Translations under genes and position numbers: made by a program
DNA from: Nitrospirota bacterium
GTDB lineage: Bacteria; Nitrospirota; UBA9217
Length of the DNA stretch: 34,288 nucleotides
Assembly (NCBI GenBank): GCA_035516965.1
Contig: DATIZR010000053.1
Coordinates: 1-34,288, forward strand
Direction: 5' to 3'
Part shown: positions 17,266 through 32,093 of the stretch, in pieces
How positions within the stretch are numbered: the first letter of the stretch is position 1
Layout of the letters: each line of letters starts with the position of its first letter
The notes under the pieces: generated by a model
Seen by the model: only the letters and a program-made list of their open reading frames with translations
Told to the model about the DNA's origin: nothing
Database searches by the model: none

Positions 17266-17498
17266 AAATGAATGAGCCGAATGGCTGCCTTCATGTACGG
17301 CACGGAGAGCCCGGACTTCTTCCTCTTTCTGATCTTGTTTCCATTCTTTGGAACTCATAAATTAAATTTACGAGGCGGGCCTCAATAACAGGAGTTACGA
17401 ATTCATATCGGTCTCTGGCAATTATCTGCAATAGAATGAATTGTTGCAAGTCCTTGAAATTGACAACTCTTCAAATCTTTGCCATCATTTAATCAGAT
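17266..17498. other. Non-coding stretch before the riboswitch array
   Basis: No gene is seen. It must hold the array promoter. The best candidate has a perfect TTGACA at 17460-17465, with CATCAT (17482-17487) 16 bases downstream, or TTTAAT (17488-17493) at an overly long 22 bases. The start would then fall just before the first aptamer. Confidence 0.45.
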
Positions 17499-17580
17499 CT
17501 CGATAAAGCTAAACTCTTCGCGAGAAGGGTACGGAAAGCCACGGGTCTTAAGAGACAAAGACGGCCGAGCTGCCGAAGGA
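17499..17580 (+). promoter_or_regulatory. c-di-GMP-I (GEMM-I) riboswitch aptamer, copy 1
   Basis: The aptamer shows the GEMM-I layout: AAAGCTAAAC entry, a 6-bp stem CTCTTC/GAAGGG capped by a GCGA tetraloop, the ACGGAAAGCCACGGGTCTT strand carrying the tetraloop receptor, a second stem GTCTT/AAGAC, and the closing GGCCGAGCTGCCGAAGG. Third base before AAAC is G (the position of G20 in the Vibrio Vc2 aptamer), as in c-di-GMP binders rather than the A found in cGAMP binders. Copy 1 differs from copies 2 and 3 mainly in loops. Its 3' strand is shared with the terminator that follows. Confidence 0.88.
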
Positions 17581-17608
17581 TTATGCCTTTGGTGGGCCCG
17601 GCCTTTTT
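17563..17608 (+). terminator. Riboswitch-controlled terminator, copy 1
   Basis: GGCCGAGCTGCCGAAGG (17563-17579, the aptamer 3' strand) pairs with CCTTTGGTGGGCCCGGCC (17586-17603) with one mismatch, one bulge and some G-U pairs, followed by TTTTT (17604-17608). Aptamer folding and this stem exclude each other. Confidence 0.85.
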
Positions 17609-17747
17609 ATTTGGCCGGCGATCGACAACGGGGCAGAAGAGAGGGAACATAGGGAACTCGGGTTCATAAGAGCACGAACGTATAGACTGGCGAGTCTCAC
17701 GCAGTTATTGACCTCCTGGAAAGAAGAAAGGAAGGCACACTTCTAAA

Positions 17748-17780
17748 ATGAATACGCGTCACATAACTACCAGCATGTAA
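17748..17780 (+). other. Ten-codon frame in spacer 1
   Basis: A short frame MNTRHITTSM with AAGGAAGG about 12 bases upstream. It recurs nearly unchanged in spacer 2. It may be a leader peptide, or the remnant of a duplicated gene start; I cannot decide. Confidence 0.3.
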
Positions 17781-17786
17781 ACCGTT

Positions 17787-17869
17787 CTCGATAAAGCTAA
17801 ACTCTTCGCGAGAAGGGGGACGGAAAGCCACGGGTCTTAAAGGACCAAGACGGCCGAGCTGCCGAAGGA
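17787..17869 (+). promoter_or_regulatory. c-di-GMP-I (GEMM-I) riboswitch aptamer, copy 2
   Basis: Same architecture as copy 1, 288 bp downstream: GCGA-capped first stem, GGACGGAAAGCCACGGGTC strand, and GTCTT/AAGAC second stem with an AAAGGACC loop. The G before CTAAAC is kept. Within the aptamer it is identical to copy 3. Confidence 0.9.
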
Positions 17870-17897
17870 TGATGCCTTTGGTGGGCCCGGCCTTTTT
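17852..17897 (+). terminator. Riboswitch-controlled terminator, copy 2
   Basis: Same overlapping stem as copy 1, from GGCCGAGC (17852) to GGGCCCGGCC, with TTTTT at 17893-17897 and an ATGATG loop. Confidence 0.85.
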
Positions 17898-18048
17898 ATT
17901 GGGCATGCGATCAACAACGGTGCAGAAGCGAGAAAGAAGAAGAGGAAGCATGAGGAACTCAGGTTCATAAGAGCACGAACGTATAGTCTGGTTCGTCTCA
18001 CGCAGTTATTGACCTCCTGGAAAGGAGAAAGGAAGGTACACCTCGACA

Positions 18049-18081
18049 ATGAATACGCGTTACATAACTACCAACATGTAA
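18049..18081 (+). other. Ten-codon frame in spacer 2
   Basis: A short frame MNTRYITTNM at the same place as in spacer 1, differing by two residues. TTACAT (18060-18065) and ATGTAA (18076-18081) flank its second half as an inverted repeat. Confidence 0.3.
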
Positions 18082-18087
18082 ACCGTT

Positions 18088-18170
18088 CTCGATAAAGCTA
18101 AACTCTTCGCGAGAAGGGGGACGGAAAGCCACGGGTCTTAAAGGACCAAGACGGCCGAGCTGCCGAAGGA
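18088..18170 (+). promoter_or_regulatory. c-di-GMP-I (GEMM-I) riboswitch aptamer, copy 3
   Basis: The last aptamer before the structural gene, identical over the aptamer to copy 2. Its terminator ends about 165 bp before the start codon. It is the gate closest to the gene. Confidence 0.9.
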
Positions 18171-18198
18171 TGATGCCTTTGGTGAGCCCGGCCTTTTT
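18153..18198 (+). terminator. Riboswitch-controlled terminator, copy 3
   Basis: Same stem as copies 1 and 2 with one G-to-A change (GGTGAGCCCGG), which falls at the bulge and keeps pairing. TTTTT lies at 18194-18198. Confidence 0.85.
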
Positions 18199-18362
18199 AT
18201 TGGGCATGCGATTCGATCGACAGGGAGACAGACGAGAAGGAATCGTGAGGAAAGGAAAATTTCATAAGGTCACTGATGCATATATGGTGAGTCTCATGTT
18301 GTCACATGATCACCTGTCGAAAGGGAAAAACATGATGGACGTCAGAAGGGAGGGGATGACGT

Positions 18363-21300
18363 ATGAAGAACTATCTGAATACGATCGTCATGTATTTGGT
18401 CATGTTCCTTCTCACTGCAACTTCGGTTTTGGCACAGCCTCCCCAGCCGTTTGCGGCCATCCACATCTCCGAACTTACCCAGGCCCTGGAAACCATGCCG
18501 GCCGTCGCGCCGACGCCTACGGGGCCTGGAACCACCGGACATCAATGGTGGGTCGCAGACTGGAAGTATCTCGTGGCGCCTCAGTCCCTGGAAGAGGCGT
18601 TCCGGTCGGACGGAACTCCCTATGTCGAAGTGTGCGATGCCGATATTGCGGCAGGCAATCTCTTGAACCCTGACGGGACACCCAGGTATCCGATCGTGTT
18701 CAGCCTGGGTTCGGAGGCTATTAACGACAATGAAATTGCTCCGCTTCGCGCATACGTTAATGCAGGAGGATTTCTGTTCGTCGGCTCATCTTCCTTCACG
18801 CGCAATCCGGATGGCACCACGAGGGGAGATTTTGCCCTGGCAACCGAGATGGGAGTGCACATGAAAAATACCAATCTTCAAAACTGGGACTGGAACTCGC
18901 ATATTACCCCGGTGATCTCCCATCGTTTGACCGCCGGATTCCCGACAAGTGCGGTATCCTGGCGGATGCCCGCATCGGCCGAGGAGATCCCTCTTGGCGA
19001 TGACACGGATCATACGGTACATGGGAACAATGACGAGTTCCAGGTCACTTCATCCGGAGCTGCCGTCATCGCGAACTGTGACACGGGGCCGTTTCTGACA
19101 ACGAAGCAATACGGTAATGGAAACTTCATCTACCACGGGGCGATGCAGCCTCTTATCGGCCATACCGTCTACGACCCCTCTCTGTATGCGTACCTTATTT
19201 ACCGGCATGCGGTCGAGTGGGCGTTCGAGACTGCAAACCTTCCGATCATCAAGCTGAGTCCGTGGAGATATCCCTATGATTCTGCTTTTGTGGTGAGACA
19301 CGACTTTGAGAACAGCAAAACGTCCATACAGTCAATCGAAAGCTCAGCGTCCTTTGAGCATTCCCTTGGAGCAACTCCCGACTACTATTTCTGCACCGGG
19401 ACGCTGCGCGAAGAGATGTCCAATGACCCGGTGACCGTGAACAGCATTCGCAACGCGATCACCAGCTACGGGGCCACGATCGGGTCGCATAACGGGGGAT
19501 TGAGGAATCCTCTTAATTCTGCCCTCACCTATGCTGATTTCGATTACTGGCACTGGGGACCGGATGAGGCCCTGAACACTTCGCCGAAGGGATATGCAAG
19601 CGGCAGTGCCTACGCCCGGGCATCGCTCCTGAAATCCTTCCAGGATATTGAAGGCTGGTTCGCGGGAACGGACAACGGAAGGCCGGGATGCGGCGCCTTG
19701 GGCAACTGTCCAAGGACCTGGGTTGCTCCCTACTTCAACTCTTCCCGGGATGCTTCCGAAAAGATCCTGGACGACCTGGGAGCCGTCAATGGTGGAGAGC
19801 AAAAGATCGGACCGCTGCCTCACTGGATAGTGTCCTACGCGACACCTACGAGCAGACTCCCTCGTGTGGTAATTCCCGCGAGTGACTGGTATGTTGGAGC
19901 GGAGATCCCGGGCGACATCGAGGACGGTCATACCCAGACTACGATGAAGGCCGCTGTTGACTTCTATCACGGCCTTGGAGGTATCATCAACCTCTACGGT
20001 CATATTCCGTCAACATCCACCTCGATCATCGGGCAATATGTAGCCTATGGAGTGACCGTGCCGCGGCAATGGGTCACGAATGCGGTCGGAGTGGCCGACT
20101 GGTGGACCTTGAGATCGCAGGTCATGGTTACTCCGTCCTGCACTCAGACGGGAAACACGGTCATTGCGCAAGCTTCTATTTCCGGAGCAGTCGTTGACCC
20201 GAACACGACAGTGGAGATCTTCTTCCCAAACAGCATCTCCCAGTATGTCGGGAGCGCACAGGTTTTAGCCAATGGGGCACCGGTGAACCCGGCGGATTAT
20301 CGAGTCGTCGGGAACACCATAAAGGTCCTTGTTGGAACGGCGACTTCCAACGTGCAGGTGCAGTACTCGATCAGTAATCCCGTGCCGCTGACAACAAGCC
20401 TGAGCCCGTCATCCGGGACTGCAGGCTGCGCGGCCTTCACATTGACCGTGAACGGCACCGGCTTCGTGTCAAACTCGACAGTGCAATGGAACGGGTCTGA
20501 CCGCACGACGACGTATGTGTCTGATACGCGGTTGACCGCAACGATCCTGGCCGCGGACATGGCAACAGCGGGGAATGCTTCGGTGACCGTGGATAGTCCG
20601 GCGCCGGGAGGGGGAGCCTCCAACGCCCAGACCTTCACGATCAATAACTCTCAAGCTCAGCCTGTGGTCTGGACCCAGACCAACTGGGTCGGCGGAGCAG
20701 GACAGGCAGTCTGGTCCGACGCAACGCGCTACAGCTCATCAAGCGGCATAAGCAGCAGCGTCGCCGGGCTCATCAGCCTCACCACCTCGAGCACCGTACT
20801 GTTCTCGGACGACTTTACCCGGGTTGCGGGCGGTACGCTGTCGCCGTGGCTGGTCTCGATGGGCACCTGGACAATAACAGGCGGAGTGCTGCAAGGATAT
20901 AACTCCGTGCAGTGGGCCGAAGCCTATGCCTACTTCACCACCACGCCCCAATTGACCGATTATGTGGTGCAGGGGAGCATCAAGATCCCGGCCGGCGCCT
21001 TCGGGGGCGGCATCGGCGGGCGATTGGATCCGGCAACCGGCAAACACTACGGCGCCTGGGTCTACCCGGCAGGGTCGGCTGGTGGATCGAATGTACTGAA
21101 ACTCTGGAAGTTCCCGAGCTGGACGGGCATCGATGACACGAGTGTGCCGATGCAGCAGGTCAGCCTGTCCGATGTCGGTACAGGCTCGCACACACTCCAG
21201 ATGAACTTCACCGGGAATCGCATCCGCGTCTATTACGACGGGAGCCTCAAGATCGATGTGACAGACAATAATTTTGGCTCCACGCCGGCCTACTTGAGCG

Positions 21301-23361: not shown

Positions 23362-23397
23362 GGGATCTGTATACCGCATTATACAGATCCCCTTTTT
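23362..23397 (+). terminator. Strong intrinsic terminator after the giant gene
   Basis: A perfect 12-bp stem GGGATCTGTATA (23362-23373)/TATACAGATCCC (23380-23391) with a 6-base loop, then CTTTTT. I see nothing else of note between it and 23573. Confidence 0.95.
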
Positions 23398-29399: not shown

Positions 29400-32093
29400 A
29401 TGAGCAATAAAATTCAGAGGCACTGGGTCCTTATCTTTTCCGTCGTCGCGGCGCTCACGCTTCTCGCCAGCGCGCGGGAGCTTATCTCCCTTGAAGTGGA
29501 TTGGCAGTTTTTCCACGAAACCGGCTTCGAAGCGGTCTTTACCAAGACCCTTACCGCAAAGCTGCTGGCCGGGCTCGCTTTCGGCGTGATCGCTTTTCTC
29601 CTGATCTACAGCAACCTCCTTATTGCCGGAAAGCGAAGGTTCCCGCCCGGCGGCCTGAATCTTCTCTGGGAAAGCATGCCGCAGCTGCCGCGCATCGATC
29701 TGGGCCGGCTGATGGGCGGGATCTCGCTCCTGGTGTCCTTTGCCGCATTCATCCTCGCCTTCCAGGTTGGCGCGCGATATTGGGAGCAGTCGCTTCTCTT
29801 CCTGAACAGCTCGCCTGCTGGCCTTGTCGATCCGCTCTTCGGCAAGGACATCTCGTTCTATCTGTTCAAGTATCCCTTTATCGACGCGATGAACTCGATG
29901 ATCCGCATCCTGATCGTGATCTCTGCTGTCCTGACAACGGCGGTCTATATTTTCCGGGGCGGCGCGGTGACCATGGGAAAGCTCTTCGCCGTGGATCCCT
30001 TCGTGAAGCGCCACATCGCCGTCCTGGTATCGCTCTTTCTTCTCAGCCTCTCGTTCAGCTTTGTTCTCGACCGCTTTGGACTGCTGACCAGCGAACACGG
30101 CGTACTGTACGGCGCCTCGTACACTGACGTGCACGCCCGCCTGCTGATGCTCACGGTCATGGCCGCGCTCGCCCTGGCTGCGGCGATCGTCGTTCCCGTC
30201 TTTGCCAGCCGGGGCTCCCTCGTCATGCCGCTCGCTGCGCTTGGGGTTCTCATGGGCCTCTCCCTGCTGGGACTGCAGGTCTATCCCTCCACCCTGCAGA
30301 GCTTCAAGGTTTCGCCGAACGAGATCGTGCTGGAGCGGCCCTACATCGCGGACCATATCAAGTTCACCCGGTACGGCTACGGCCTGGAGAACATGGAACT
30401 GGAGCCCTTTGCGGCGAACAAGCAGCTGACCTTCACGGATATCCGGAAGAACCTGCCCACCATCCAGAACATCCGGCTCTGGGACGAAGAGCCGCTCCTG
30501 AAGACCTACAGCCAGCTGCAGCAGATCCGGACCTATTACCACTTCAGCGGCGTGGACAATGACCGCTATACCGTGAACGACAACTACCGCCAGGTCATGC
30601 TGTCCCCCCGGGAGCTGTCCTACGCTGATCTGCCGGAGAAGTCATGGATCAACGAACGGCTCGTCTTCACCCACGGCTTCGGCCTGGCCATGGGGCCCGT
30701 GAGCGGCATCACGAAAGAAGGCTTGCCGGAATTCTACATCAAGGACATCCCGCCGGTCACGAACGCGGGGCCGAAGGTGGCCCGGCCTGAGATCTACTAC
30801 GGCGAAAGCCCGAACGACTACGTCATCGTGAACACGAAGACAAAGGAGTTCAGCTATCCCACGACCGAGGGGAACGTGTACAGCGTTTATACGGGGAAGG
30901 GAGGCGTCCGGTTCTCGTCGCTCCTGATGCGGTGCCTCTATGCCGCCTACTTCGGGAGCTTCAATATCGTGCTGTCGAGCGATGTGACCGATGAAAGCCG
31001 GATCCTCTATAACCGGGAAGTCATCAAGCGGGTCGCCGCGATCGCGCCGTTCCTGTCGTACGACCCTGATCCGTACATGGTCATCGGCGACGACGGTAAA
31101 TTGTTCTGGATCATCGACGCCTACACCCAGAGCGGCAACCTCCCCTATTCCAAGCCGCTTCCGGGAGGGACCAACTACATTCGTAATGCGGTCAAAGTGG
31201 TCGTGGACGCCTATGACGGCTCGGTCTCGCTCTACGTTGTGGACCGGAAGGACATCCTGGCGAAGACCTATGCAGCCATCTTCCCGACGCTGTTCAAGCC
31301 GATCGGCGATATGCGCGCAGACCTCCGGGGGCACGTCCGGTATCCCCGGGCGCTCCTCAAGATCCAGGCGCGGATGTTCACGACCTTCCATATGACGGAC
31401 CCCTCGGTGTTTTACAACAAGGAGGACCTCTGGGAGATCCCGTCGTACCGGCAAAAGACCATGGACCCCTATTACCTCATTACGAAGCTCCCGGGGTTCG
31501 ACGAGGAAGAGTACATCCTGCTCCTGCCTTTCACACCGTCGAAGCGGGACAACCTGGCCGCCTGGATGGCAGCGCGAAGCGATGGCGGGAACTACGGCAA
31601 GGTCACGGTCTACACCTTTCCGCGGGACCGGCTCGTCTTCGGGCCGCGCCAGATCGACGCCCGCATCGACCAGGACGCCTATATCTCGCAGCAGCTCACG
31701 CTCTGGGGCCAGCACGGCTCCGATGTGATCAGGGGGAGCCTCCTCATCATCCCCATCGAGGACTCGCTCATCTATGTGCAGCCGCTCTTCCTGGTGGCCA
31801 CGGACAAGGGCGGCCTGCCGGAGCTCAGGAGGGTCATCGTTGCCTACGGGAACAACGTGGTCATGGAAGAGACGCTCGATGCCGCGATCCAGCGCCTGTT
31901 CACCGGCTCGCTGCCGAGCATGCGGATGATGGAGAACGGCGCGGCAGAGGGCAAGCGGCCCTCACGGGAATTGAGCTCCCAGGCGCTGGAACAGTTGCGC
32001 AAGGCAAGGGAAGCGGTCCGGAAAGAAGACTGGGCCGGCTACGGGAAATACCTGAAAGACCTGGAAGAGACGCTCCGGGAAATGGCGAAGTAA
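29400..32093 (+). CDS. UPF0182 family membrane protein
   Basis: An 897-residue UPF0182 (COG1615) protein. About seven hydrophobic spans lie in the first 310 residues (WVLIFSVVAALTLLASA to LGVLMGLSLLGLQVYPSTLQ). A large extracytoplasmic domain follows (NEIVLERPYIADHIKFTRYGYGL, GEGNVYSVYTGKGGVRFSS-type segment, FLSYDPDPYMVIGDDGKLFWIIDAYTQS) and an acidic/basic coiled tail (LRKAREAVRKEDWAGYGKYL). Length is normal for the family. Its function is unknown. ATG 29400 is preferred to GTG 29397 because AAGGA lies 4 bases upstream of the latter pair. Confidence 0.92.
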   Translation: MSNKIQRHWVLIFSVVAALTLLASARELISLEVDWQFFHETGFEAVFTKTLTAKLLAGLAFGVIAFLLIYSNLLIAGKRRFPPGGLNLLWESMPQLPRIDLGRLMGGISLLVSFAAFILAFQVGARYWEQSLLFLNSSPAGLVDPLFGKDISFYLFKYPFIDAMNSMIRILIVISAVLTTAVYIFRGGAVTMGKLFAVDPFVKRHIAVLVSLFLLSLSFSFVLDRFGLLTSEHGVLYGASYTDVHARLLMLTVMAALALAAAIVVPVFASRGSLVMPLAALGVLMGLSLLGLQVYPSTLQSFKVSPNEIVLERPYIADHIKFTRYGYGLENMELEPFAANKQLTFTDIRKNLPTIQNIRLWDEEPLLKTYSQLQQIRTYYHFSGVDNDRYTVNDNYRQVMLSPRELSYADLPEKSWINERLVFTHGFGLAMGPVSGITKEGLPEFYIKDIPPVTNAGPKVARPEIYYGESPNDYVIVNTKTKEFSYPTTEGNVYSVYTGKGGVRFSSLLMRCLYAAYFGSFNIVLSSDVTDESRILYNREVIKRVAAIAPFLSYDPDPYMVIGDDGKLFWIIDAYTQSGNLPYSKPLPGGTNYIRNAVKVVVDAYDGSVSLYVVDRKDILAKTYAAIFPTLFKPIGDMRADLRGHVRYPRALLKIQARMFTTFHMTDPSVFYNKEDLWEIPSYRQKTMDPYYLITKLPGFDEEEYILLLPFTPSKRDNLAAWMAARSDGGNYGKVTVYTFPRDRLVFGPRQIDARIDQDAYISQQLTLWGQHGSDVIRGSLLIIPIEDSLIYVQPLFLVATDKGGLPELRRVIVAYGNNVVMEETLDAAIQRLFTGSLPSMRMMENGAAEGKRPSRELSSQALEQLRKAREAVRKEDWAGYGKYLKDLEETLREMAK

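Follow-up and report, generated by a model that had tools for sequence, protein, structure and literature searches.

A triple-tandem c-di-GMP-I riboswitch, probably acting in series as an ON-switch, upstream of a repeat protein gene in a Nitrospirota bacterium

Among all riboswitch classes, c-di-GMP-I (GEMM-I) has the most tandem cases, and the relevant survey counts 347 doublets and 12 triplets, which are classed as pseudo-cooperative (PMC9481103). Moreover, c-di-GMP riboswitch tandems are enriched in Thermodesulfobacteriota and Deinococcota (PMC12452182). One triplet, Bc3-5 of Bacillus thuringiensis, was tested in reporters and behaves as a series ON-switch (PMC4759541). For a Geobacter tandem, RNA-seq showed that without ligand the RNA is lost by the second copy.

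Here, a window of 34,288 nucleotides from a Nitrospirota draft genome was analysed, in which three aptamer-terminator units precede a single gene. The comparison with Bc3-5, which the initial annotation had drawn already, is supported (PMC4759541): Bc3-5 likewise has three complete and very similar aptamer-terminator units following one another within one 5' UTR, and in both arrays the terminator takes the P3 and P1 strands and an ON response is predicted. However, Bc3-5 precedes cspABCDE, whereas the window array precedes one gene for a secreted protein with choice-of-anchor Z (CoaZ) repeats, and the window spacers of 178–190 nt have an identifiable duplication history. The homotypic aptamers and separate expression platforms agree with the pseudo-cooperative c-di-GMP-I tandems surveyed before (PMC9481103), and the pilM switch of G. 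metallireducens has the same ON-switch geometry (PMC9262584). The tandem GEMM-Ib riboswitches of Geobacter, e.g., before GSU2885, are also of the ON type and terminator-based, but comprise two copies of the cGAMP type, in contrast to three copies with G20 in the window (PMC6456294).

The locus is a new, or newly read, example of an arrangement already described in the literature, in which triplets are rare and not unknown. The earlier statement that tandem GEMM arrays are rare holds for the triplets but is too strong in general, in view of the doublets counted in that survey and of further doublets among the matches listed for the family (G005 twice, G007, G012) and the phylum (G141 twice, G251, G305, G373). 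A secreted CoaZ-repeat protein is not mentioned as a target of tandems in the accessible portions of PMC9481103, PMC12452182 and PMC4759541. The array leaves the knowledge of riboswitch kinds unchanged; it adds a clear homotypic triplet from a lineage in which c-di-GMP and cGAMP riboswitches abound, and its readable duplication history together with a single large secreted target offers a simple natural test of whether stacked terminator switches confer low leak or steepness.

Three aptamers and their ligand class

Searching the whole 34-kb window with cmscan against Rfam 15 at the gathering threshold resulted in three matches only, all to RF03167 and all on the + strand (Table 1). They begin exactly where the initial annotation had placed three GEMM-I aptamers, and RF01051, the model it had proposed as a check, also matches all three above its cut-off. 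The gathering cut-offs of RF01051 (35 bits) and RF03167 (59 bits) are passed by each copy, with RF03167 scoring higher in every case, and a chance origin of the three matches is excluded. The copies are nearly identical, as had been noted: aptamers 2 and 3 are the same in sequence and copy 1 differs at few loop or junction positions. P2 with a GNRA tetraloop (GCGA), P3 and the closing P1 are present in the copies, with one C-A mismatch in P3.

Table 1. Features of the array and its target gene (window positions).
Feature	Position	Strand	Remarks
Stop codon of FMN-oxidoreductase gene, upstream of array	17265		
Promoter-like TTGACA-17-CATCAT, TG before second hexamer	17460-17488	+	consensus match only
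c-di-GMP-I aptamer, copy 1	17499-17578	+	RF03167 66.5 bits, E 8.5e-14; RF01051 58.7 bits
Intrinsic terminator 1	17563-17608	+	fold -25.4 kcal/mol; U5 tract; 5' arm = aptamer 3' strand
Spacer 1, diverged leader, 178 nt	17609-17786	+	
c-di-GMP-I aptamer, copy 2	17787-17867	+	RF03167 65.1 bits, E 2.1e-13; RF01051 54.0 bits
Intrinsic terminator 2	17852-17897	+	fold -25.4 kcal/mol
Spacer 2, 190 nt	17898-18087	+	homologous to spacer 1
c-di-GMP-I aptamer, copy 3	18088-18168	+	RF03167 65.1 bits, E 2.1e-13; RF01051 54.0 bits
Intrinsic terminator 3	18153-18198	+	fold -26.7 kcal/mol
Gene leader, 164 nt	18199-18362	+	homologous to spacers 1 and 2
Ribosome-binding site GGGAGGGG	18348-18355	+	
Target gene, 1657 aa	18363-23336	+	ATG at 18363
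Terminator after target gene	23362-23391	+	25 nt past stop codon

The pocket bases, read off the model alignments, are G20, A47 and C92 in all three copies, the numbering being what we take to be that of Vc2. Judging from the consensus lines, the variant names in Rfam appear to give the bases at these positions, i.e., G/A/C for RF01051, G/G/C for the GGC variant and U/A/U for the UAU variant. RF03167 (c-di-GMP-I-GGC) is the best-scoring model here and is above its cut-off, but where its consensus GCGAA has G at position 47 the three copies read GGAAA and carry A. Because of this A and the G/A/C pocket the copies were filed as canonical c-di-GMP-I, despite the higher RF03167 scores. Riboswitches of the c-di-GMP and cGAMP types are told apart by position 20, which is G in the former and A in the latter (PMC9481103), and the A of the cGAMP riboswitch (GEMM-Ib) is found in none of the copies, each of which has G. 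The pocket bases thus suggest that the ligand of the three copies is c-di-GMP. That they sense another dinucleotide, be it cGAMP or a different one, is very unlikely in view of the uniform pocket and the missing A-to-G change that defines GGC, even though the preference for RF03167 and the presence of A20 (cGAMP-type) aptamers in the same genome (contigs C50, C117, C36 and C75) would fit such a ligand. Mixed binding is possible as well, since position 20 influences selectivity without being an absolute filter (PMC9262584).

Overlapping terminators and predicted series switching

Each aptamer has its own intrinsic terminator, as the initial annotation had claimed, and the three UUUUU tracts end at 17608, 17897 and 18198, the last being the end that had been assigned to the array. 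The terminators were missed by a simple terminator scan because their stems are interrupted. In all copies the stem GGCCGAGCUGCCGAAGG/CCUUUGGUGRGCCCGGCC begins within the aptamer, using the 3' strand of P3 and P1, C92 included, as its 5' arm. With the aptamer 3' strand doubling as the terminator 5' arm, aptamer and terminator are mutually exclusive, which is a ligand-ON anatomy. In the full-length unit the aptamer fold is costlier than the terminator fold by 17 kcal/mol (copy 1) or 20–22 kcal/mol (copies 2 and 3), and by only 5–8 kcal/mol before the terminator 3' arm is transcribed, in calculations that leave out tertiary contacts and the ligand. A ligand bound before this arm exists would keep the terminator from forming, and each unit is accordingly predicted by its folding to be an ON-switch.

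A promoter-like site, matching at 10 of 12 positions, lies 10 nt before aptamer 1 and predicts a transcription start just before this aptamer. Two such sites occur in the window compared to 0.06 expected, and the only one on the + strand stands at the front of the array. The scan of the + strand gave no internal promoter within the array, where such promoters are possible; the prediction is a single front promoter, from which all units would be transcribed on one RNA. The target gene is followed by a terminator and a convergent gene, making it a monocistronic unit, as described before.

The three aptamers are of the same class, each is coupled to a separate expression platform, and together they precede one gene, which is the arrangement of a pseudo-cooperative tandem. 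It is very likely that the c-di-GMP-I units form a homotypic triple-tandem riboswitch that controls transcription as a pseudo-cooperative series ('AND') ON-switch. RNA polymerase would start just 5' of aptamer 1. At low c-di-GMP, the downstream arm would capture the P3/P1 3' strand of each aptamer to form the terminator, giving three chances to stop, whereas at high c-di-GMP the ligand would hold each aptamer and block the terminator, allowing the polymerase to pass. Expression of the gene would require ligand on all three copies of one transcript, and read-through would be the product of three independent switches. This should result in very low leak, a steeper response and a half-maximum at higher ligand concentration. 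In an idealised product model, which illustrates the logic and is no measurement, a leak of 20% falls to 0.8%, EC90/EC10 falls from 81-fold to 43-fold (32-fold without leak) and the half-maximal ligand concentration rises about threefold.

Duplication history

The units are tandem repeats of 288–301 nt, and the array arose by tandem duplication. The last duplication comprised a 301-nt unit (17640-17911 versus 17941-18212, 94% identical), and this pair differs at 16 of 147 nt in the spacer and at 1 of 111 nt in aptamer plus terminator (Fisher p = 0.0008). The switch core was thus kept while the spacer drifted, as expected under selection. Both spacers also share homology with the gene leader that follows copy 3 (z 12.6 and 16.2). 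A recent and neutral duplication, or membership in a repeat element, with a single working copy and no gain in function, would account for the tandem repeats and for orthologous genes elsewhere without the array. It is nevertheless improbable, given the far better conservation of the core than of the spacer and the retention of pocket, stems and terminator in all three copies. Furthermore, no other copy of the spacer sequence was found in the genome, which argues against a dispersed repeat; a dispersed element was also rejected as there was no phage match. There could in fact be more or fewer than three copies, since copies 2 and 3 share an identical run of 110 nt and the genome is a draft of 120 contigs.

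The promoter-like hexamers lie within the 47 nt before aptamer 1, and this stretch is identical in register to both spacer ends at 29 of 47 positions, compared to a maximum of 24 in about 20,000 random pairs. The promoter region was therefore probably part of the duplicated unit, whose internal copies lost both hexamers (TTGACA to ATGAAT, CATCAT to CAGCAT). This might also be read as parallel promoter-riboswitch cassettes, in which every unit has, or once had, a promoter to itself and transcripts starting before copy 1, 2 or 3 meet three, two or one terminators, so that the array would raise the dose and make the response graded rather than strict. The inclusion of the promoter region in the duplicated unit speaks for this arrangement, but the decay of the internal hexamers and the scan without an internal + strand promoter make it unlikely as a description of the present array. 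With the series switch as the present state, we tentatively suggest that a promoter-riboswitch-leader cassette was duplicated in tandem and that decay of its internal promoters then made a three-stage series gate out of parallel cassettes, a gate that the orthologues without a riboswitch do not have; this is possible, though somewhat short of an even chance. If true, cassette duplication followed by promoter decay shows how a series switch evolves.

Several candidates around the array were rejected. The spacers do not fold better than shuffled sequences (z 0.06 and 1.01), and their derivation from the gene start would rest on matches of 8–15 nt, which are not significant. Terminator-like remains GCCGAATGGCTGCC...GAGCCCGGACTTCTT are present upstream of the array at 17276-17321, collinear with the units. 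A decayed fourth unit at this site is not significant alone, as 95–312 of 1000 shuffles are as good and control stretches of the window score similarly. A wider upstream homology fails the window-wide control (33 against 31; 29 against 33), and only the 47 nt adjoining aptamer 1 were kept.

Target protein and related elements in the genome

The initial annotation had described the target as an IPT/deacetylase-type protein, of which the repeat part was borne out and the deacetylase part was not. Behind a signal peptide (read by eye) the protein has an N-terminal region of about 600 amino acids without domain assignment, and its C-terminal part consists of seven CoaZ (TIG-like) repeats (NF058597, E 1.1e-236), with a weak TIG match. 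The motifs RHDFE and SHNGG are the sole hint of a deacetylase; the segment has no Pfam match even at E<=10, no relative of the region was found in the PDB, confidence in the structure model is low (mean pLDDT 31.8), and a NodB-type deacetylase fold was rejected on these grounds. If switched on by c-di-GMP as predicted, this large secreted repeat protein plausibly has a surface or matrix role in the sessile state.

The N-terminal region (window 18363-20400), which lacks Pfam and PDB relatives, has only two homologues among the collections searched, one in the same family (G009, 61% identical) and one in a Verrucomicrobia MAG (49%); this patchy distribution suggests horizontal transfer. Upstream of these two orthologues, both of which have very short leaders, no riboswitch was found, so that the array is specific to this lineage as far as seen.

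In line with the predicted c-di-GMP control, the same genome contains 22 GGDEF-domain matches. Further GEMM-I sites number about 10, and many of these lie before predicted secreted proteins or lipoproteins. The aptamer at C21:91446-91524 (-) has an unusual pocket of G20, A47 and U92; its best model is RF03168 (UAU), with a score below the cut-off of this model. A second tandem array of two aptamer-terminator units of the A20 type is located at C36:30289-30400 and 30426-30568 (-), the upstream unit of which has diverged beyond the reach of the Rfam model but still aligns from end to end (score 170, shuffle maximum 51). Moreover, aptamers at C113:8427-8515 and C75:36277-36357 lie at contig ends before genes whose starts are near-identical; position 20 is G in one aptamer and A in the other, which suggests paralogues with diverged ligands (c-di-GMP versus cGAMP).
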